From: Pirellulales bacterium | GTDB lineage: Bacteria; Planctomycetota; Planctomycetia; Pirellulales; Thermoguttaceae | Assembly: GCA_016935315.1 (NCBI GenBank) | Contig: JAFGRD010000051.1 | Span: forward strand, 1-64,000 | Reading direction: 5' to 3' | Length of the DNA: 64,000 nucleotides | Shown: positions 50,853-61,170 of the stretch, piece by piece | Position numbering within the stretch: the first letter of the stretch is position 1 | How the letters are laid out: each line of letters opens with the position of its first letter | The notes under the pieces: model-generated | Databases searched by the model: none | Seen by the model: the letters and a program-made list of their open reading frames with translations, nothing else | Told to the model about the DNA's origin: nothing | Made by a program: the position numbers and the translations under genes

Positions 50853-50902
50853 GACTGCTAATCCTACACGATACGAGGTAGCAAACACGAGGAGAGCTTG
50901 TG

Positions 50903-52567
50903 ATGGCAAAGTACAAGGTTCCGAAGCTCGCCAAGCCCGCGAGGGTCAAGAAGAAGCAGGTCTTGCTGGTCAGCAGTGGCGATCTGCGCGACTCGGCCAA
51001 CGAGGTCTGCTGGGCCAATCAGGAGCAGATGGAGGGAGACTTGGCCCAGGCCGTCGGCGAGGCCGGGTACGAGCTGGTTCGGGCACATCCGTACAAGCGC
51101 GACGTGAAGCACGGTTTCATCAGCTCGCAGAAGGAGGGCATGAGCGTTTTTGCGGGCATCGACCCGACCGCCAAGCTCATCGTGGCCGAGACTGTCTGGC
51201 AATACTCCCATCACGTCCTGGCCGGATTGATCGACCACCAGGGACCGATCCTTACGTTGGCCAACTGGTCGGGCACCTGGCCGGGGCTGGTGGGCATGCT
51301 CAACCTCAACGCCTCCCTGACCAAGGCCGGTGCCAAGTACTCGACGCTCTGGAGCGAGAGCTTCGGCGATCCGGCGTTTGTCAAGAAGCTCAGGCGGTGG
51401 CTCGACAAGGGATCGGTTAAGCACCCCACGAAGCACGTGATCCCGTGGAAGAAAGTCAAAGTCCCGGCCGCGGAGCAGCGTTTGGGCAAGGCCCTGGCCG
51501 AGCAGCTTCGCCACGAGAAGGCCATTATGGGCATCTTCGATGAGGGGTGCATGGGCATGTACAACGCCATCATCCCGGATGAGTTGCTCAACCCCGCCGG
51601 CGTCTATAAGGAGCGGCTCAGCCAGTCAGCGCTCTGCTACGAAACTTCGTTGGTCAGCGACCAGGAAGCCCAAGCCGTCCGCCGCTGGATGGAAGATCGC
51701 GGCATGACGTTCGTGACCGGGCCCAACGAGAGCCGGGACCTGACCGACGGACAGATCCTCACTCAGTGCAAGATGTACATCGCCGCCATGCGGATCGCCG
51801 ACGATTTCGGCTGCGACCTGATCGGCATCCAGTATCAACAGGGCCTGAAGGACATGCTGCCGGCCAGCGACCTGGTCGAAGGCATGCTCAACAACGGCGA
51901 CCGCCCGCCGGTGAAAAGCCGCGACGGCAAACGGGTGCTCCGCAACGGCGAGCCGTTGGTCCACTTCAACGAGGTCGACGAATGCGCGGGCCTTGACGGG
52001 CTGATGACCTATCGCGTCCACAAGGCGATGGGCCAGCCGGTGGAAAACACGCTGCACGACGTCCGCTGGGGCGATTGGGACCAGTCGGGCACGGTGGACG
52101 ACTATGTGTGGGTGTTCCTGATCAGCGGCTCGGCCCCGCCGGCCCACTTCATCGACGGCTGGAAAGGCGCTTCCAGCGAGCGGCAGCCGGACATGTACTT
52201 CCGGCTCGGCGGTGGCACGCTCAAGGGCATCTCCAAGCCGGGGGAAATCGTCTGGTCGCGCGTGTTCATCGAAAACAATCGGCTGAAGATGGACCTTGGC
52301 CGGGCAGGCGTCGTCGAGCTGCCGCCGGAAGAGACCCAACGCCGCTGGGACCTGACCACGTCACAATGGCCGATCATGCACGCCGTGACCTACGGTGTCT
52401 CGCGCGATCAGTTCATGGCCCGACACAAGGCCAATCACATTCAGGTCGCCTACGCCAACAGCGCCAAAGAGGCCGACCGGGCTCTGCTGGCCAAGGCCGC
52501 CATGGCCGAAGCGATGGGCATGCAGGTGGCCCTCTGCGGCACGCGGAAAAACGGAAAAGCGTGGTAG
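50903..52567 (+). CDS. L-fucose/L-arabinose isomerase-like protein
   Basis: This 554-residue protein has the layout of the L-fucose isomerase superfamily. A Rossmann-like N-terminal half covers [18 protein letters not shown] and [20 protein letters not shown] metal-binding C-terminal half carries [29 protein letters not shown] and [12 protein letters not shown]. The acidic residues in the first two of these are candidates for the metal site. It begins at ATG 50903 behind GGAGAG. The fucosidases at 11-15 kb would supply L-fucose, so use in deoxysugar breakdown is plausible. Specificity cannot be told, and many planctomycete members are uncharacterised. Confidence 0.8.
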
Positions 52568-52656: not shown

Positions 52657-53397
52657 CTACAGCTCTCGTGAGCCGTCGGGCACCGTGTCCATTTCGGCCT
52701 GCGTGATGCGCCAGTTGGCCCACTTGGTGCCGAGTCTCGTGCGCAGCAGTTTGATGGCGACGAAGAAGGCCCTTCTCTTGCCGTCCTCGTCGTACGTCAC
52801 CGTGTACCGCTGATCCACCATGTCGTGCCCTGCGACTTGCTTCTGCGCGGTGGTGTCGTAATACCGCACCTGGGCCTTTTCACCCAAGTCCAACAACCTT
52901 CGCACCAGCGGCCTGGCGACGTACGACTTCAGTTCCTCGGCCCAGTTGGGATCGTCGCGATAGAGGTCCGAGAGCTGATCTCCCAGCGGCGGGCGGTAGA
53001 CGGGATTGGTGAGCAGTTGCCGGGCCTTGTGCGGCTCGTCGTGGCGGAGGAATCCGAACCACGCCAAGGCGAACTGTCGGGCCTCGCGGCGAATCAACCA
53101 GCGATAGCCGGCCCAACCCGTCGGACCGGCCGTGGCGAAGACCAGCGAAAGGACCAGGCCCGTCAAGGCCGCGCGGCGGCCGGACAGCACGGGGGCATTT
53201 CGGGCGATTCGCCAGAGTGCCGAGCCGCTGACGAACGTTCCCACCAGCGGCACGATCCAGAGCAACGGGTCGATCATCGCCAGCGGCGCCAGCAGCCCCA
53301 GCATCAAGCCGGCCACGGCCGGCGCGCTCAGCGCCCGGTATTCGGCAATCTGGGCGTCGCGAAAACCGGTCCGTTCAGAAGGGACTTCGTTGCACAT
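52657..53397 (-). CDS. Small membrane protein, 246 residues, DUF4190-like head
   Basis: Residues ~25-95 form two or three membrane helices with the short motif order SAPAVAGLMLGLLAPLAMID, LWIVPLVGTFVSGSALWRIAR and ALTGLVLSLVFATA. This is the pattern of DUF4190-like membrane heads. The soluble C-terminal ~145 residues include QFALAWFGFLRHDEPHKARQ, a Cys-free region that looks like a small alpha/beta domain. No enzyme motif is visible. It begins two bases after the cvpA stop, so it is the last gene of the pilT-gspE-like-cvpA transcript and may work with them. Confidence 0.7.
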   Translation of the reverse strand: MCNEVPSERTGFRDAQIAEYRALSAPAVAGLMLGLLAPLAMIDPLLWIVPLVGTFVSGSALWRIARNAPVLSGRRAALTGLVLSLVFATAGPTGWAGYRWLIRREARQFALAWFGFLRHDEPHKARQLLTNPVYRPPLGDQLSDLYRDDPNWAEELKSYVARPLVRRLLDLGEKAQVRYYDTTAQKQVAGHDMVDQRYTVTYDEDGKRRAFFVAIKLLRTRLGTKWANWRITQAEMDTVPDGSREL

Positions 53398-53399
53398 GC

Positions 53400-54023
53400 C
53401 TATCGAACGCGCATGGTTCCCGAGGTTTCGATGCTGGTTTCCGCCTTGGCGCGCCGGGTGGCGTACTTCAACATGAACTCGCCCTTGGGGTCGAACACGT
53501 ACTTCTCCTGCTTCCGCTGCGACTCGGAGGCCGATCGGGCGAAGCTGCCCCGCGATATCTTCTGCGTGAACGCCAGCCACTGCCGATCGGGGGCCAGTCC
53601 GAAGAACATCCGCTGCTCGGGGTTGAACGAGCCCCACAGCGGATTCCGCGCCAAGGGGGCCGTGTGCATCGTGGTGGCGGTGAAGCAGACCATCACCCAG
53701 CCGATCCAGATGGCCAACACCGCGCTGCCGATCTGATCGGCGATCTTCAGGAAACGGACTTTCACGCGGGAAAGGCGGTCCGTGGCCAGGCGAAAGACGA
53801 CCATGCAGACTCCGAACACGCCCCACAACGCCAGAAAGTCCCAGAAGTACGTATAGCTGGGACCCCATCCGTCGAGCATGTCCGCCACCGGTTCGTAGAA
53901 GTTCATCGCCAGAAGCGCCGACGTGACCACGTTGATCAACCGGAGCGCGTTGCCCCAGATGCCCTCCGTGTAGAGGCACGCAACGCAGGCGAACAGCACG
54001 ACGAACATCAGAACGGTGAACAT
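53400..54023 (-). CDS. CvpA family membrane protein
   Basis: This 207-residue protein has four hydrophobic segments in the first ~125 residues (MFTVLMFVVLFACVACLY, INVVTSALLAMNFYEPV, YFWDFLALWGVFGVCMVVF, AVLAIWIGWVMVCFTATT), the arrangement of CvpA/colicin V production proteins. The C-terminal ~80 residues are soluble and basic, without a known domain. CvpA proteins influence envelope functions in ways still debated. It follows the GspE-like gene after 15 bases and precedes the 246-residue membrane protein, in one transcript. Confidence 0.75.
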   Translation of the reverse strand: MFTVLMFVVLFACVACLYTEGIWGNALRLINVVTSALLAMNFYEPVADMLDGWGPSYTYFWDFLALWGVFGVCMVVFRLATDRLSRVKVRFLKIADQIGSAVLAIWIGWVMVCFTATTMHTAPLARNPLWGSFNPEQRMFFGLAPDRQWLAFTQKISRGSFARSASESQRKQEKYVFDPKGEFMLKYATRRAKAETSIETSGTMRVR

Positions 54024-54038
54024 GGCACGATTACCTGT

Positions 54039-55790
54039 CTATTGCTTCAACACCCGCATCAATTCCGGCAGCGAGGTCACCCCCTTGGCGACCAGCAGAA
54101 TGCCTTCCTCTTGAAGACTCCGCATCCCGTCCTTTCGGCCGGCCTGGCGGAGCAATTCGATCTTCGGGTCGGCTTTCAGCACGTGGCGGACCGTATCGCC
54201 GACGACCAGCAGCTCGAACACGGCGGTTCGGCCGAGGTAGCCGATGCCGTTGCACACCTCGCAGACCTCCTCGGGTTCCTGCGGCGGCCGGTAGAACGCC
54301 TTGACGCGGCCTTCCGGAATGCCGAGTTGCTGGAGCACCTGGGGCGTCGGCGTATAGGCCTCTTTGCATTCGGCGCACAGCTTGCGGACCAGCCGCTGGC
54401 TGACCACCGCCGAGACGGCCTTGGCGAGTTTCTTCCGGTCGGCCCCCAGCGCCAAGACTCGCAGCAGCGCCTCCGCGCTGTCCTTGGCCCGAATCGTGCT
54501 GACGATCAACCGCTTCTCGTCGGCGATCTCGTCGCACACGAGGTCGACCGTCTCGCCGTCGACCAGGTCGCGAATCACGACCACTTCCGGTTCTTCACGA
54601 AAGACCTTGGGCAGCACGTCGACCGGTGTTTGGCCGTCGGCCGCCTTATAGGTCCGCACCGGACAGTTTTCGATTTTCTCGTAGGGGTTGGTGACCTCCT
54701 CGACGGCCATGAACTCCCGCGTGTATCGGTCGGTGTGGCGGATCACCACGTCGGCCGTGCTTCGCAACCCGCCGCCCGGCATGGCCGAGAACAGCAGCAA
54801 ACCCTTCTCCAGGTAAAACAGCTCGCGGATCTGCTCCTGGATCTTTTCTCGCATTCCCAGCTCGCCCATGTCGTCGAAGGCGATCTTCTTGTCTTCGAAC
54901 TGGATCACGGCGCGTTCGCCCGACTTGGTTCCTTGCGCGGTCAGGGTGGTGGCGTACTTGACCGAACTATATTCGGCGCTGAATCTGCCCGACTGCCGGT
55001 TCTGCCGGTCCTGCGAGTTCATGCCGCAGAGGACCTTCAGCGATTCCAAGGCCGGATCGCCCGCGTCGCGTTCGATCGGCTCTTGATTGAGCCACACGCC
55101 GTCGACCAGGTAGCGCAAGCCGACTGCCTGCTGGGAGTAGTCGAGCATGATGGCCGACGCCCGCATCGTCAGGCCGTCGTAGAGGATTTTCCGTGCGGGC
55201 AAGAGGCCGGGCGTCTGTCGCGCCAGCAACAGGCGGGCGTTGTTTTCGCGTTCGTCGGCGCCGCCGAGTCCGGCGACTCTCACCGGCGGCCCCTTCTCGT
55301 GGGGATCCATGGCTTCGGCCGCGATCTTGACACCCACCTTGGCCAGACGCACCGCGAGCCAATAGCGGATATGGGCCGGGGTAAAGACCCGCAAATCGTT
55401 GGTAACCCGCCGATTGCGTTGCACGACGTACGTGGAAAAAGGGGCCACGTAGGCGATCGCCAGCAGCGGAAACGCCAGCCAGAAGTACGGGATGATCCAG
55501 ACCAGCACGAACGTCGCGAAGAACGGCCCGCAGATGATCGGATTCCAGCGCACGTAGTTGAGCTTCAACTCTTGGGCGTCCTGGCTGGCCCAGTCGGCGG
55601 AATGCACCCACATGGCGAACACCACCCAGCAGGCGAGGATCTGGATCCAGCCCAGGTAGAAACCCGACCCGCGCCAGCTCGATCTCAACTCCATCGACGG
55701 CCAATCGGCGCCCGATTGGGCGAGCAGCTCGCCCGAGCCCACCGTGAGGATCAGGACCATGATGGTCACGATGAACGAGAAACGCAACAT
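54039..55790 (-). CDS. Membrane-anchored GspE/PilB-like protein with degenerate P-loop
   Basis: This is a 583-residue protein. A signal-like helix at 5-24 and hydrophobic stretches at ~45-62, 86-104 and 105-125 anchor it to the membrane, unlike soluble GspE. From ~150 on it follows the secretion ATPase plan, but the P-loop position reads AMPGGGLRST (336-345) in place of GxTGSGKTT, with no lysine. The Walker B region is FREEPEVVVIRDLVDGETVD. The zinc-type cysteines are kept (C472, C475, C510, C513), with GYLGRTAVFELL after them. It overlaps pilT by one base. It is therefore probably an inactive, regulatory or structural relative that pairs with the active PilT. Confidence 0.85.
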   Translation of the reverse strand: MLRFSFIVTIMVLILTVGSGELLAQSGADWPSMELRSSWRGSGFYLGWIQILACWVVFAMWVHSADWASQDAQELKLNYVRWNPIICGPFFATFVLVWIIPYFWLAFPLLAIAYVAPFSTYVVQRNRRVTNDLRVFTPAHIRYWLAVRLAKVGVKIAAEAMDPHEKGPPVRVAGLGGADERENNARLLLARQTPGLLPARKILYDGLTMRASAIMLDYSQQAVGLRYLVDGVWLNQEPIERDAGDPALESLKVLCGMNSQDRQNRQSGRFSAEYSSVKYATTLTAQGTKSGERAVIQFEDKKIAFDDMGELGMREKIQEQIRELFYLEKGLLLFSAMPGGGLRSTADVVIRHTDRYTREFMAVEEVTNPYEKIENCPVRTYKAADGQTPVDVLPKVFREEPEVVVIRDLVDGETVDLVCDEIADEKRLIVSTIRAKDSAEALLRVLALGADRKKLAKAVSAVVSQRLVRKLCAECKEAYTPTPQVLQQLGIPEGRVKAFYRPPQEPEEVCEVCNGIGYLGRTAVFELLVVGDTVRHVLKADPKIELLRQAGRKDGMRSLQEEGILLVAKGVTSLPELMRVLKQ

Positions 55791-57037
55791 CAGAGCATTC
55801 CGGATTGGCTGACGTCGATGCCTTTGAGGGCCATTTTAAGTGCTTCGGGATTAGGGGCCACCTCGAACGCCGTCGCCCGATCGATCATGTCGCGATTGAC
55901 CAGATCCTTGAGGCTCTGTGTGAAGTCCTGCATGCCTTCCTCCTTGGCCAGGCGGATGGCGTCGGCGAGCTTCTGGTCCTCTTCATCTTCGATCAGCTTG
56001 CGGACCGTGGGGTTGAAGAACATGATCTCGACGGTGGGCACGCGGCCGACCCCCTCCTTGATCGAGGGAATCAGCTTCTGGGCGATGATCCCCTTCATGT
56101 TGAAGATCAACGCGCTGCGGATCGCCGTGTGCATGCTTCGGGGAAACAGATCCAACAGCCGGCCGACCGTGCTGGGTGCCGTCGAGGCGTGGATCGTCCC
56201 GAACACGAGATGGCCCGTCTCGGCCGCCTGCAATGCCGTCTCGAACGTCTCCCGGTCGCGCATTTCCCCCACCAGCATCACGTCCGGATCTTCCCGCACG
56301 GCGTGCTTCATGCCGGTCATGAAGTTCTTCACGTCCATGCCGATCTCGCGCTGGTTGATCAGGCACTTGTCTTCGGTGAAGGTGAATTCGATCGGGTCTT
56401 CCAGCGTGAGGATGTGCTTGCGGTAGTTGCGATTGACATAGTCGAGCATCGAGGCGATCGTGGTCGTCTTCCCCGATCCGGTAATCCCGGCCAACAAGAT
56501 CATGCCCTGGCTGTAGTGGCAGAGCTTCTCCAGGCTGGGCGGCAGGTGGAGCTGTTCGAAGCTGGGGATCCAGTTGCTCACCCGACGCGCGACCAGCCCC
56601 ACGTGCCCCATCTGCTGCAGCACGTTGACGCGAAAGCGCCACGACTTGTCGTCCACTTCCAGGGAATAGGCGAAGTCCACGCCGCCGTCTTCCTCGAAAA
56701 CCAGCACGCGCCGCTTGTCGAGCTTGATCATGGGGAAGATCAGCCGAACCATCTCCTCGTCGTTGATCGGAGGCCGGTTCAGCGGGCGCAGCGAGCCGTT
56801 GACACGAACGAACGGCGGGCAATCGACCTTCAGGTGAAGGTCGCTGCCTTCCAGCTTCACCAGCGCACGAAACACCTTGTCGATCTCCAGCCCCTCGCGG
56901 ATACCAACGAATCGTTCTTTGCTGAGTTCGCCCGTCACCTGCATATTCGGCTCCTGATCGCTTTGGTGTTCAGTCGCCTCGGGTCGTCTCTGTTCTGTCT
57001 TCGCTTCCTTCTGTCTCGGCTCCACGTCCGTAGCCAT
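55790..57037 (-). CDS. pilT: PilT-like twitching/retraction ATPase
   Basis: This 415-residue hexameric AAA-type ATPase of the PilT family powers pilus retraction or a related secretion step. Walker A GITGSGKT lies at 184-191, the Asp box is ILTLEDPIEF, the His/Walker B region is AVREDPDVMLVGEMRDRETF, and AETGHLVFGTIHAS is the His box. About 45 N-terminal residues are polar and variable. AAGGAGG precedes ATG 57037. Neighbours are a P-loop-less GspE relative, CvpA and a small membrane protein. No pilin or PilC gene is present, so an envelope-secretion role other than classical twitching is possible. Confidence 0.93.
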   Translation of the reverse strand: MATDVEPRQKEAKTEQRRPEATEHQSDQEPNMQVTGELSKERFVGIREGLEIDKVFRALVKLEGSDLHLKVDCPPFVRVNGSLRPLNRPPINDEEMVRLIFPMIKLDKRRVLVFEEDGGVDFAYSLEVDDKSWRFRVNVLQQMGHVGLVARRVSNWIPSFEQLHLPPSLEKLCHYSQGMILLAGITGSGKTTTIASMLDYVNRNYRKHILTLEDPIEFTFTEDKCLINQREIGMDVKNFMTGMKHAVREDPDVMLVGEMRDRETFETALQAAETGHLVFGTIHASTAPSTVGRLLDLFPRSMHTAIRSALIFNMKGIIAQKLIPSIKEGVGRVPTVEIMFFNPTVRKLIEDEEDQKLADAIRLAKEEGMQDFTQSLKDLVNRDMIDRATAFEVAPNPEALKMALKGIDVSQSGML

Positions 57038-57124: not shown

Positions 57125-57910
57125 TTACCGAGTGACGCCGTTTTGCAACCTCACGGGGACCCCGCGACGCTGCATAATGCGTTTGGTTTCTTCAATGGTG
57201 TACTCGCCGTAATGGAAAATGCTGGCGGCCAGGGCGGCTTCCGCCCCGCCCAACAGGATGGCATCGGCCAGGTGATCAGGGCACCCGGCTCCGCCGCTGG
57301 CGACCACCGGAATCCTCACAGCCTTGGTCACCGCCGAGGTCATTTCCAGATCATAGCCGTCTTTTGTCCCGTCGGCGTCCATGCTGGTCAGCACGATCTC
57401 GCCGGCCCCGAGTTGCTCGACCGTACGGGCCCAGGCAACAGCCTCCAATCCGGTGCCGATACGCCCCCCGTTGATGTGTACTTCCCAGAACTCTTTGCCG
57501 TCTTGGATCACACGCTTCGGGTCGATATTGACCACGATACACTGGCTGCCGAAGCGCCGGGCGGCCTCGCGGACGAACTCGGGATTCCGACAGGCGGCCG
57601 AGTTGATCGAGACCTTGTCGCTGCCCGCATTGAGCAAGGCCCGAATATCCTCCATCAAGCGTATGCCGCCTCCGACCGTGAGTGGCATGAAGATCACCTC
57701 GGCGGTCCTTCGGACCACATCGAGGATAATGTCGCGGCCCTCGTGACTGGCAGTGATGTCCAGGAAGACCAATTCGTCGGCCCCCTCCTGCTCGTAGCGC
57801 GCCGCCACTTCGACCGGATCTCCGGCGTCGCGGAGATTCAGGAAATTCGTGCCCTTGACCACCCGGCCCCGGTTCACGTCGAGACAGGGAATTACCCGTT
57901 TAGCGAACAT
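57125..57910 (-). CDS. hisF: Imidazole glycerol phosphate synthase, cyclase subunit
   Basis: This 261-residue (beta-alpha)8 barrel forms imidazole glycerol phosphate and AICAR in histidine synthesis, with ammonia from HisH. The N-terminal catalytic Asp is in [16 protein letters not shown]. The second catalytic Asp is in [14 protein letters not shown], and the phosphate sites are PLTVGGGIR and [15 protein letters not shown]. Length is standard. hisH is not adjacent. It precedes pilT by 87 bases on the same strand. Confidence 0.96.
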
Positions 57911-58028: not shown

Positions 58029-61000
58029 TTATTCCCCGCCGGCAGTCCATCTCGCGGCGGCGCGCATGTCCACCCGCGGCGTCGCAAGCATCTTCCGCCG
58101 GCCCTCCCGAATCGCTTCGAGCATGGTGGCGTAGTCGGGATCGCCGGGGTCCTGGAAGAGCGGCCTGCCCTGGCCGCCTTCCTCGGTACCCAGGCCGCGA
58201 CCGCCGGCCGCCTTGGCCAAATGGGCCACCAGCAGGGCGCTGTGTTCCGGGTGGGTGAAATTGACCCACGCGTAGCGGCCGTCCCAGATGTTGCCGTGGT
58301 CGTTCGGGTGCGGAAATCCGCCGTGACAGGAGTGGCAGCGGCGACCGTAAACGCCCAGCAGTCGCTTCGCATACCATGGCGACTCCTGGCCGGTTTCCAC
58401 GTCCGTACAAAGGTCGCGATAGCCGGGCGAATGGGGGCGGCTGTGCTCGTAGGTGCCGTAGTACGGCACGTTGGCGTCGATCCAAAGGTAAATCCGTCGG
58501 CGGTCGGCAAGCGGAATCATCCGGCCGCAGTGGTCCGTCTCGATATACTCCAGCAACCGGCTGGCGTGCGAACCGGTCCACAAGGGCCGATTGACGGCCG
58601 TGGGCGTCCGCAACAGCCAGAAGAAATGGACCAGCGGCTTGCCGCGGGCCGCCTCTTCGGGCAACATCTGCCCGGCGGCCATGTCGTGCTGCCGGTACGA
58701 CCGGCTACGCCCCAGCAAGTTGTCGTAAGCCATGTTGAAGATCCGCGTCTTGTCGCCCGAAAGGTCGTAGCCGGCGTCGGGATCCGGGCCGCTGTGGCAC
58801 TCCACACAATACGTGTCCAGGACGGGTTGGACGACCTTGACGAAATCGACGATTCCGCCGTTGCCCCAGACGGGCGGCGTCGGCCGCCGCGGCGGCCGGT
58901 GCGAAGCGATCGGGCTGGCCGCCGACCGGGCCGGCGGGGCCGTGTTCCGCGGCTCGTGACAGCCGATACAGCTCAGCGTTTCGCCCGGCATCAGTTGCAC
59001 GGCCGAGGTCATCCGCTGCAGCTCGCGTCCTTCCGCGTCGAGCACCTGGAAGTAGACCTCTCGCAGAGCCGGCACCAGGAAATGGGCCGAACCGTCGGCC
59101 TCGACCGGCACGCAGCCCCAGCAGCGCTTGGCGTAATACGTGCCATAGCTCATCACGGGCGACTGGTCGTAAGCCCGATGGCTGAGGTCGGCCATCTTGC
59201 GCATCTGCTCCATGAGTTGGATCTGCTTGACCCGGCCCCGCTCGATGCCCGGCAAACCGCGATAGACGTCGGCTAACAAGACCGATCCCCAGGCGGTGGT
59301 GTCTTGGGCCGACGGCTCTCGACGTTCCCCCGAGGCGACCATCGGAATCGCGCCTTGCGGCCGCAGAGACAAGGGGCCATAGCAGCCCATCTCCGGGTCG
59401 GCATGGACCGGCACCTTGTTGTCGCAGAGATCCAAGAGGTAAACAGCGAAGCGGCCCACGCCGCCCTCGCCCCCGCCGTAGGCGACCAGGAACTGATAGT
59501 CGTTGACGGGAAACGGATCGCGATAGGACCAGCGGTACGAGCGGTCTTCGATGATCGGAAATTCCTCCGTGATCCAGGCAAAGCCCTGGTCTCGGGGTGC
59601 CTCCAGGCCGAGTTGGTTCTGAATCAGCCCGATCGCCCCATGGGGCCATCCGTGGTGCGGAGCGAACGTGGCCACCACCAGGTTGCCTTGGCCGGGAACG
59701 GGCCGGGCCTGCCAGAACGTGCCCACCGCTCGGATCGTGTTGCCGAAGAAGAGCTGGTAGCGACGCCCGTCCGGGCTCTGCGTCCAAAGACTCTGCCGGT
59801 AGGTCAGGTCGCGGTCGACGTATTCCCAGCGGGTGAACAGCACGCGGCCGTCGGGCAGCATCTGCGGCGAAAAGTCGGAAAGCGTGTTTTGGCTCACGCA
59901 CCGCACGTCGCCGCCGTCGCGCCGCATGACGTGCAAGTTGGAGCTTGGGCCCGGTTGGCATACCGTGAAGCCGCCGCGCCGCGTCGAGACAAACAGTAAA
60001 TCGCCGTCGGGCAGTTCGATCGCACTGACCTCGTGGTATTGCGGGTCGCGGCTGACCCTCTTGAGGCCTTGTCCGTCCACGCCGATCTCGTAGATCTGCC
60101 AGCACGGCTCCTCCCGTCTTCTGAACGAGAAAAACAGCGTCTGGGCGTCGCGAGAAAGGTTCATGTCGAAGATGCAGCCTTCCGGGTCGCTGAAGATCAC
60201 CTGCGGCGGTGTGCCGGGCGTGGCCGGGTCGCAGACGGCGATCCGACAGCCCCAACGTTCCGGGACGCTCTGCCAGAGGTAACAGTTGGCGGCGTTGGGG
60301 CGCGCCAGCGGGTGCCGCATGAAGAAGGCAATCCGGCCGAGTTGGCCGACCTGCTCGGACAGCAGCCCTCGCAACCCTTCGAGGTGCTTCGCGACCGTCG
60401 CGTCGTCAACGGCCTCGCCGGCTTCCATGCTCTCCAACAGCCGCTTTCGTTGCCTTTGGAAGTCGGCCAATCGGGCCAGATAGCGTTGACCTTGGAGTGA
60501 AAGGCCTTCCGTGCGAAGCATCAGGTCACCGAGGACCGTTCGCCGCGGCTCGAACCGGATATTCCGCAAGTCACCCAGCCGCCGCCGAAACTCTCGGGCA
60601 CGCACCAGTCGCGGGTCGTCGCGGATGTCCCATTCGATGATCCCGCTGCCGAAGCCGGGGCGCGACTGGACCTCGATCCGCAAGGCCGCCGTCTCGACCG
60701 GCCGGAACGTGACCCGGTTGAACACGCCCTTTTCGACGCCGAACGGGCAGGTGTTTTCCACCGGCAACCAGCGATCGCCGCGGCGATGGAAGAGCCGCCA
60801 CGACTCGGGCAGGGGGCAGTCGCCGCCGGGCGTGTCGTCGAGCCAGTAGACCTCGGTGGCCGAGACCTTGCGCGGCCCGTCCAAATGATATTCGACCCAT
60901 TCCTTGGTTCCCTGGTGTGGCCAGAAGGAATGTCGCGGGCGGTCGGTGGGGCTCTGCGGCTCGACGCGATCGTTGATCGCCGCGACCGTGTCGCCGGGGA

Positions 61001-61091
61001 AGCAGTGCGAGACGCGCACCTCCTCGGCGGCCACCGGCCCGGCAAGCACGGCGGCGGACAGAAGCAGAAGCGACCGGATCGTGAAACCCAT
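58029..61091 (-). CDS. Exported three-heme protein of the hydrazine-synthase-alpha-like family
   Basis: This protein has about 1020 residues. A signal peptide (LLLLSAAVLAGPVAA) is followed by a discoidin-like region to ~160, and residues ~270-640 contain TolB-type propeller strands (LPDGDLLFVSTRRGG, LPDGRVLFTRWEYVD). The C-terminal third carries three CxxCH heme-c sites: CIGCH (~707), CVECH (~761) and CHSCH (~918). This order resembles the middle-domain family named after the hydrazine synthase alpha subunit and widespread in planctomycetes that do not do anammox. Electron transfer or sugar oxidation is plausible, but hydrazine synthesis is not implied. ATG 61091 fits the GGAAGG site better than ATG 61097. 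Confidence 0.85.
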   Translation of the reverse strand: MGFTIRSLLLLSAAVLAGPVAAEEVRVSHCFPGDTVAAINDRVEPQSPTDRPRHSFWPHQGTKEWVEYHLDGPRKVSATEVYWLDDTPGGDCPLPESWRLFHRRGDRWLPVENTCPFGVEKGVFNRVTFRPVETAALRIEVQSRPGFGSGIIEWDIRDDPRLVRAREFRRRLGDLRNIRFEPRRTVLGDLMLRTEGLSLQGQRYLARLADFQRQRKRLLESMEAGEAVDDATVAKHLEGLRGLLSEQVGQLGRIAFFMRHPLARPNAANCYLWQSVPERWGCRIAVCDPATPGTPPQVIFSDPEGCIFDMNLSRDAQTLFFSFRRREEPCWQIYEIGVDGQGLKRVSRDPQYHEVSAIELPDGDLLFVSTRRGGFTVCQPGPSSNLHVMRRDGGDVRCVSQNTLSDFSPQMLPDGRVLFTRWEYVDRDLTYRQSLWTQSPDGRRYQLFFGNTIRAVGTFWQARPVPGQGNLVVATFAPHHGWPHGAIGLIQNQLGLEAPRDQGFAWITEEFPIIEDRSYRWSYRDPFPVNDYQFLVAYGGGEGGVGRFAVYLLDLCDNKVPVHADPEMGCYGPLSLRPQGAIPMVASGERREPSAQDTTAWGSVLLADVYRGLPGIERGRVKQIQLMEQMRKMADLSHRAYDQSPVMSYGTYYAKRCWGCVPVEADGSAHFLVPALREVYFQVLDAEGRELQRMTSAVQLMPGETLSCIGCHEPRNTAPPARSAASPIASHRPPRRPTPPVWGNGGIVDFVKVVQPVLDTYCVECHSGPDPDAGYDLSGDKTRIFNMAYDNLLGRSRSYRQHDMAAGQMLPEEAARGKPLVHFFWLLRTPTAVNRPLWTGSHASRLLEYIETDHCGRMIPLADRRRIYLWIDANVPYYGTYEHSRPHSPGYRDLCTDVETGQESPWYAKRLLGVYGRRCHSCHGGFPHPNDHGNIWDGRYAWVNFTHPEHSALLVAHLAKAAGGRGLGTEEGGQGRPLFQDPGDPDYATMLEAIREGRRKMLATPRVDMRAAARWTAGGE

Positions 61092-61170
61092 GAGCATATC
61101 CTTCCTGAGGGCAGGTGCAGGCAGGAGCCGAAGACTATTCTATCTGCCGAGGGGGTGAGATCGCAAGCGG

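Follow-up and report, generated by a model that had tools for sequence, protein, structure and literature searches.

Secretion and pilus ATPases are usually described as soluble, active homohexamers. The locus analyzed here raises the question of what a membrane-anchored relative of these ATPases does beside an intact PilT when its own ATP site has been dismantled. The locus lies in a window of 64,000 nucleotides from contig JAFGRD010000051.1 of a Pirellulales bacterium, within Planctomycetota, and comprises the following genes, where gspE* denotes the gene of the inactive protein:

hisF, 57125..57910 (-), conserved upstream neighbor of pilT (PF00977, E=7.6e-83)
pilT, 55790..57037 (-), PilT/PilU-family ATPase, 415 aa
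gspE*, 54039..55790 (-), membrane-anchored GspE/PilB-family pseudo-ATPase, 583 aa, identified from its PF00437 match and orthologs
cvpA, 53400..54023 (-), Colicin V production-family membrane protein, 207 aa (PF02674, E=2e-10)
g4, 52657..53397 (-), membrane protein, 246 aa, with a sub-threshold match to DUF4190

An initial annotation had read 55790-57037 as pilT and 54039-55790 as a GspE relative overlapping by one base. Both open reading frames were found at these coordinates, and base 55790 (TGATG) is common to the two genes. The annotation had also described cvpA and another membrane protein downstream and no platform gene nearby. This description holds, as the neighbors are hisF, pilT, cvpA, and g4, and the T2SSF matches in the same genome, among the matches listed, are on other contigs. 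A Pfam search of the contig found PF00437 in the pilT and gspE* products only.

The PilT protein of the window is intact, as had been claimed. It retains the Walker A motif (GITGSGKTT), the Walker B motif (VGEMRD), the Asp box, and the HIS box (TIHA), scores 391.5 bits against TIGR01420 (cut-off 319.1), and has PilT 2ewv as its best PDB match (E=3.7e-86). PilT was present in 145 of 148 genomes of the class, and the commonest variants of its motifs across the aligned loci are all intact.

The gspE* product matches Pfam T2SSE (PF00437) over residues 201-579 (E=2.6e-40), and its best NCBIfam and PDB matches are GspE/PilB/PilF. Its structure was predicted as a monomer with AlphaFold2 from 20 sequences (mean pLDDT 85). 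In Foldseek comparisons the model resembled PilB, PilF, and GspE, with E values down to 1e-36 and TM-scores by target of up to 0.89, so that the T2SSE fold (N2D and CTD) is present. Four helices were predicted ahead of the N2D, the first of them weakly, in agreement with the hydrophobic N-terminal segments first noticed in the sequence:

residues 1-24, 55719..55790 (-), signal-peptide-like hydrophobic helix, predicted at 2-23 with pLDDT 50-60
residues 48-74, 55569..55649 (-), predicted membrane helix 1, W61 invariant, W67 and D71 nearly so
residues 79-99, 55494..55556 (-), predicted membrane helix 2, W82 invariant
residues 103-128, 55407..55484 (-), predicted membrane helix 3, leading into a conserved RN motif

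In the RN motif, R125 is nearly invariant and N126 invariant across orthologs. The hydropathy of the ortholog N-termini and their small-residue ending fit a signal-like segment. From this model, the topology is probably a signal-like segment followed by three membrane helices. The closest named relative is a Pirellulales bacterium (57% identity), and in one pattern-limited scan the membrane N-domain seemed to be limited to Planctomycetota.

We then compared the ATP-site residues of gspE* with those of PilB, whose positions R271, R286, and R455 were mapped onto gspE*. In PilB, R271 and R286 are N2D arginine fingers lent to the neighbor's ATP site and R455 is an inter-chain contact arginine (PMC5424180). 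The corresponding features of gspE* are:

former Walker A, residues 334-345, 54756..54791 (-), FSAMPGGGLRST, Leu342 in place of Lys
former Walker B and catalytic Glu, residues 401-414, 54549..54590 (-), PEVVVIRDLVDGET
former HIS box, residues 431-442, 54465..54500 (-), STIRAKDSAEAL
lost arginine finger, residue 282 (PilB R271), 54945..54947 (-), now Thr by column comparison
lost arginine finger, residue 297 (PilB R286), 54900..54902 (-), now Gln by column comparison
retained inter-chain arginine, R469 (PilB R455), 54384..54386 (-), invariant in intact and lost sets
tetracysteine zinc module, C472, C475, C510, and C513, 54252..54377 (-), invariant columns

The P-loop reads SAMPGGGLRST and does not fit GxxxxGK[ST], which confirms the lysine-less Walker A of the initial annotation, and the loss extends well beyond it. 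The catalytic Glu is replaced by Asp (Asp408; VVIRD for VGEIRD, outside the pattern GE[IVM]RD) and the HIS-box His by Arg (TLHT to TIRA). Neither arginine finger remains; among Pirellulales, Arg is found in 16% at position 282 and 24% at position 297, compared with 100% in intact and canonical proteins at both. The Asp-box Glu (PilB E357) is Y370 in gspE*; just 44% of Pirellulales retain the Glu. R469 is kept in 100%, and the four zinc cysteines are kept in 100% of the Pirellulales and Phycisphaerae sets, in line with the earlier view that the secretion ATPase plan and zinc cysteines survive. Practically all of the order thus has a dismantled ATP site but has kept the fold, the zinc module, and the predicted membrane anchor. 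Judged by these residues, gspE* is nearly certainly catalytically dead. A derived motif, P-x-x-G-L, is conserved at the former Walker A in Pirellulales. Across 31 members of the order, conservation at the dead site was 100% for G341, 94% for P338, 94% for L342, 87% for R407, and 84% for R434, against a mean of 56%. By this measure the dead site is under constraint.

A sequencing or assembly error was considered as the source of the motif loss and was rejected, because dozens of independent orthologs agree on it. Orthologs were found in 20 families when 60 relatives were searched, and the reading frame is open in 75 genomes of the same order, which also span 20 families. GK[ST] was absent from every copy in 74 of these 75 genomes. 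A sequencing correction or GKT in close relatives, either of which had been named as grounds for withdrawing the claim, therefore finds little footing. The exception is G385, where GK[ST] is confined to a tandem second copy that has neither the membrane domain nor the catalytic Glu. At this locus (G385:C37:113965-117097, L273), a membrane-anchored and a short GspE* follow pilT in tandem, and the short one reads GDGKST. In Rhodopirellula relatives, G329, and G404, the membrane domain is also absent, yet the gene remains beside pilT. Loci L113-L117, L274, and L275 (Rhodopirellula-type, some of family f16) are of this kind, with both the membrane domain and the ATP site lost next to pilT.

The usual order in Pirellulales is hisF-pilT-gspE*-cvpA, with g4 next in many loci, and the four-gene order recurs across Planctomycetota. 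The gene cvpA follows gspE in most loci and hisF precedes pilT in most. Of the 45 same-order loci compared, 24 have the 1-base overlap of pilT and gspE* and 4 have a 4-base overlap; these counts are an estimate, since gspE* was taken to begin at whichever start codon lies closest to the pilT stop. Such overlaps imply translational coupling. The four-gene order suggested in the annotation, pilT to the second membrane protein, stands in part: hisF and pilT form a deeply conserved core and cvpA is a usual member, but gspE has been lost outright several times and g4 was detected mainly in Pirellulales loci.

The membrane N-domain and the locus are shared with other Planctomycetota outside Pirellulales. 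Orthologs in f21 (of the same class, probably Planctomycetales), f105, f107, Gemmataceae, f51, and f65 have intact ATP-site motifs (GPTGxGKST, GEIRD, and HxND). The intact Gemmataceae ortholog, L110, shares a contig with G343 of f106. Since intact orthologs occur in sister orders, inactivity is a trait of lineages and not of the family at large. In Phycisphaerae, the motifs have been lost by other substitutions (GPKxxGxTST, GPAGSGRTTT). Intermediate states were also found: G341 lacks only the HIS-box His, G306 keeps the Lys plus a Glu (DELRD), and G307, G318, and G333 keep the Lys and have lost the catalytic Glu and the His. The gspE of G307 (L263) is degenerate and has lost the zinc cysteines as well (RLLEEDIKEPW, MIPPGSNGYLGR).

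At the pilT locus of G304, G311, G316, G322, G309, G312, G352, G355, G366, and others, gspE was not found. In such loci (including L322-L332) pilT is kept, mostly with hisF beside it, so that hisF stays upstream of pilT even where gspE is gone. A replacement gene beside pilT was sought in these lineages, and nothing was common to all ten loci compared. Several f21 genomes have pilT and gspE at separate, unlinked sites.

A short, membrane-less GspE paralog without the Walker A lysine was observed as a second copy in f21 genomes, at G083:C1:987656-988903 (L217), G295:C1:3828715-3829995 (L215), and G362:C1:1742284-1743549 (L277). The G083 paralog adjoins several T2SSF (GspF-type) matches. We considered this paralog as the true counterpart of gspE* and rejected it, as it has no membrane domain and neither pilT nor hisF was found beside it. 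G362 is presumably Planctopirus limnophila.

To date the loss, we constructed a careful PilT tree of 82 rows with ultrafast bootstrap. The fully lost state required three changes on this tree (bootstrap range 3-3), in Pirellulales, in Phycisphaerae, and in one member of the small family f109, and the whole-gene absence of gspE required five. Intact f21 was sister to Pirellulales (98/99). A quick GspE protein tree, in contrast, grouped the dead forms together. This grouping is probably long-branch attraction, as the likelihood of the GspE tree rose when clades were constrained: by 13 lnL for Pirellulales with intact f21 (p-AU 0.66), and by 4 lnL for the class (p-AU 0.56). With three losses on the PilT tree and the likelier constrained GspE tree, we prefer repeated loss, as read from these trees, to a single old dead paralog that was differentially retained. 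Tree changes alone cannot tell loss from gain, and the direction is read as loss because the canonical outgroups are intact.

We infer, with a probability of about 0.5, that gspE* is a membrane-anchored pseudo-ATPase that is kept on to serve an active PilT ring as its adaptor or docking platform. Its ancestor would have been a working membrane-anchored secretion ATPase. The three membrane helices would hold the cytoplasmic, GspE-like portion at the inner membrane, where the protein would probably form a homo-oligomeric ring, since R469 is kept. This ring could dock, position, or stabilize a separate, ATP-hydrolyzing PilT hexamer and would replace the platform contacts usually supplied to soluble PilT by PilC, with all mechanical work done by PilT. 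The module could act on a type IV pilus whose genes lie elsewhere in the genome or on another envelope process. A precedent is found in PilU, which keeps retraction going when PilT carries Walker A/B mutations but not when pilT is deleted, PilT and PilU being separate homohexamers (PMC6821130). A catalytically dead ring can thus still be a required partner. Loss of the ATP site at least three times in the phylum suggests that gspE* is now a mount or adaptor for PilT and not a motor. Counting against this reading, several lineages keep PilT with no gspE beside it, so PilT does not strictly need the partner; the unlinked genes of f21 also count against it. We hold only tentatively the fuller picture of an active PilT ring on a membrane-integral dead GspE ring, a phylum-specific arrangement in which two motors repeatedly became one.

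The initial annotation had envisaged an envelope machine with an active and an inactive ATPase subunit. The pairing of PilT with a dead membrane GspE in a conserved order survives from this proposal, and the mixed hexamer does not fare as well. Co-assembly of both proteins in one ring would draw on the co-translation implied by the overlapping genes and on their common N2D-CTD plan, but gspE* lacks both arginine fingers that one subunit supplies to the next (PMC5424180), which would leave mixed interfaces dead. The two proteins also belong to different clades, and the related PilT/PilU pair does not share a ring, which makes a mixed hexamer very unlikely. It is a little less improbable, but still quite unlikely, that gspE* is a decaying relic of little function heading for gene loss. 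The graded decay from G341 (His), through G307, G318, and G333 (Glu and His), to Pirellulales (all), together with the whole-gene losses, would fit such a course. However, the open frames across 20 families point to long-term purifying selection, and so do the invariance of the zinc cysteines, the conservation of the replacement motif in the dead site, and the upkeep of the membrane helices.

The protein might instead occupy the platform of canonical type IV pilus or type II secretion ATPases elsewhere in the genome, regulating or blocking them, and not be a partner of PilT. In favor of this, the genome carries numerous active T2SSE ATPases along with 24 T2SSF matches, and the two genes are unlinked in several f21 genomes; the long conservation of the pilT-gspE pairing and overlap leaves it unlikely on balance. 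The slimmest chance falls to ATP binding in an unusual pocket, as in a pseudokinase-like nucleotide sensor. The P-loop G341 and a Ser/Thr after it are largely kept and new Arg residues are conserved at 407 and 434, but the Lys, catalytic Glu, HIS-box His, and both arginine fingers were lost together, and fewer than half of Pirellulales keep the Asp-box Glu.

Compared with known systems, gspE* shares the N2D-CTD fold, tetracysteines, and inter-chain arginine of the PilB/GspE clade (Geobacter PilB, Thermus PilF, and Vibrio GspE). It differs in lacking the Walker A Lys, catalytic Glu, HIS-box His, and arginine fingers, and in having its own membrane helices where that clade has a soluble N-terminal domain. 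Canonical GspE/PilB come with a GspF/PilC platform gene, whereas gspE* has none among its neighbors. The likeness to PilT/PilU of Vibrio and Acinetobacter is that two related ATPase-fold proteins occur together and a dead ring can support its partner; however, both of those are PilT-type, soluble, and naturally active, while gspE* is GspE-type, membrane-anchored, and naturally dead. The orthologs of f21 (e.g., G362), Gemmataceae (L110), and others have the same membrane N-domain, often in the order hisF-pilT-gspE-cvpA, and differ from gspE* in their intact ATPase motifs. Searches of the openly available literature turned up nothing specific on planctomycete PilT/GspE pseudo-ATPases or degenerate Walker A motifs in pilus ATPases.

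The genome of the window also has a separate pilB-pilT-pilB'-pilC-prepilin locus (G000:C25), so PilT has a pilus on which it could act; gspE* could also serve that locus instead. Its ATPases are related to gspE* but are soluble, motif-intact, and linked to a platform gene and prepilins, and its PilT is 40% identical to the window PilT. In planctomycetes, appendages that look like type IV pili have been described, as have crateriform structures that may take part in polysaccharide uptake (PMC8303584, PMC11958385); a link between these and the pilT-gspE* locus is speculation.

The series from intact through partly decayed and dead to lost, with the membrane-anchored member usually beside an intact PilT, is a natural experiment on what an ATPase fold does besides hydrolyzing ATP and offers a way to ask which motor of a coupled pair is required. 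The intact form appears to be present in Planctopirus limnophila, a species with established gene deletion and a transposon essentiality map (PMC11958385, PMC10632474), which would allow the two states to be studied side by side in culture.

Two further genes were observed in the window. A 1022-aa protein (58029-61097, -) matches PF18582, the hydrazine-synthase-alpha middle domain, and has heme-binding-like CxxCH motifs. The gene at 50900-52567 (+) encodes a divergent L-fucose isomerase-like protein with sub-threshold Pfam matches.
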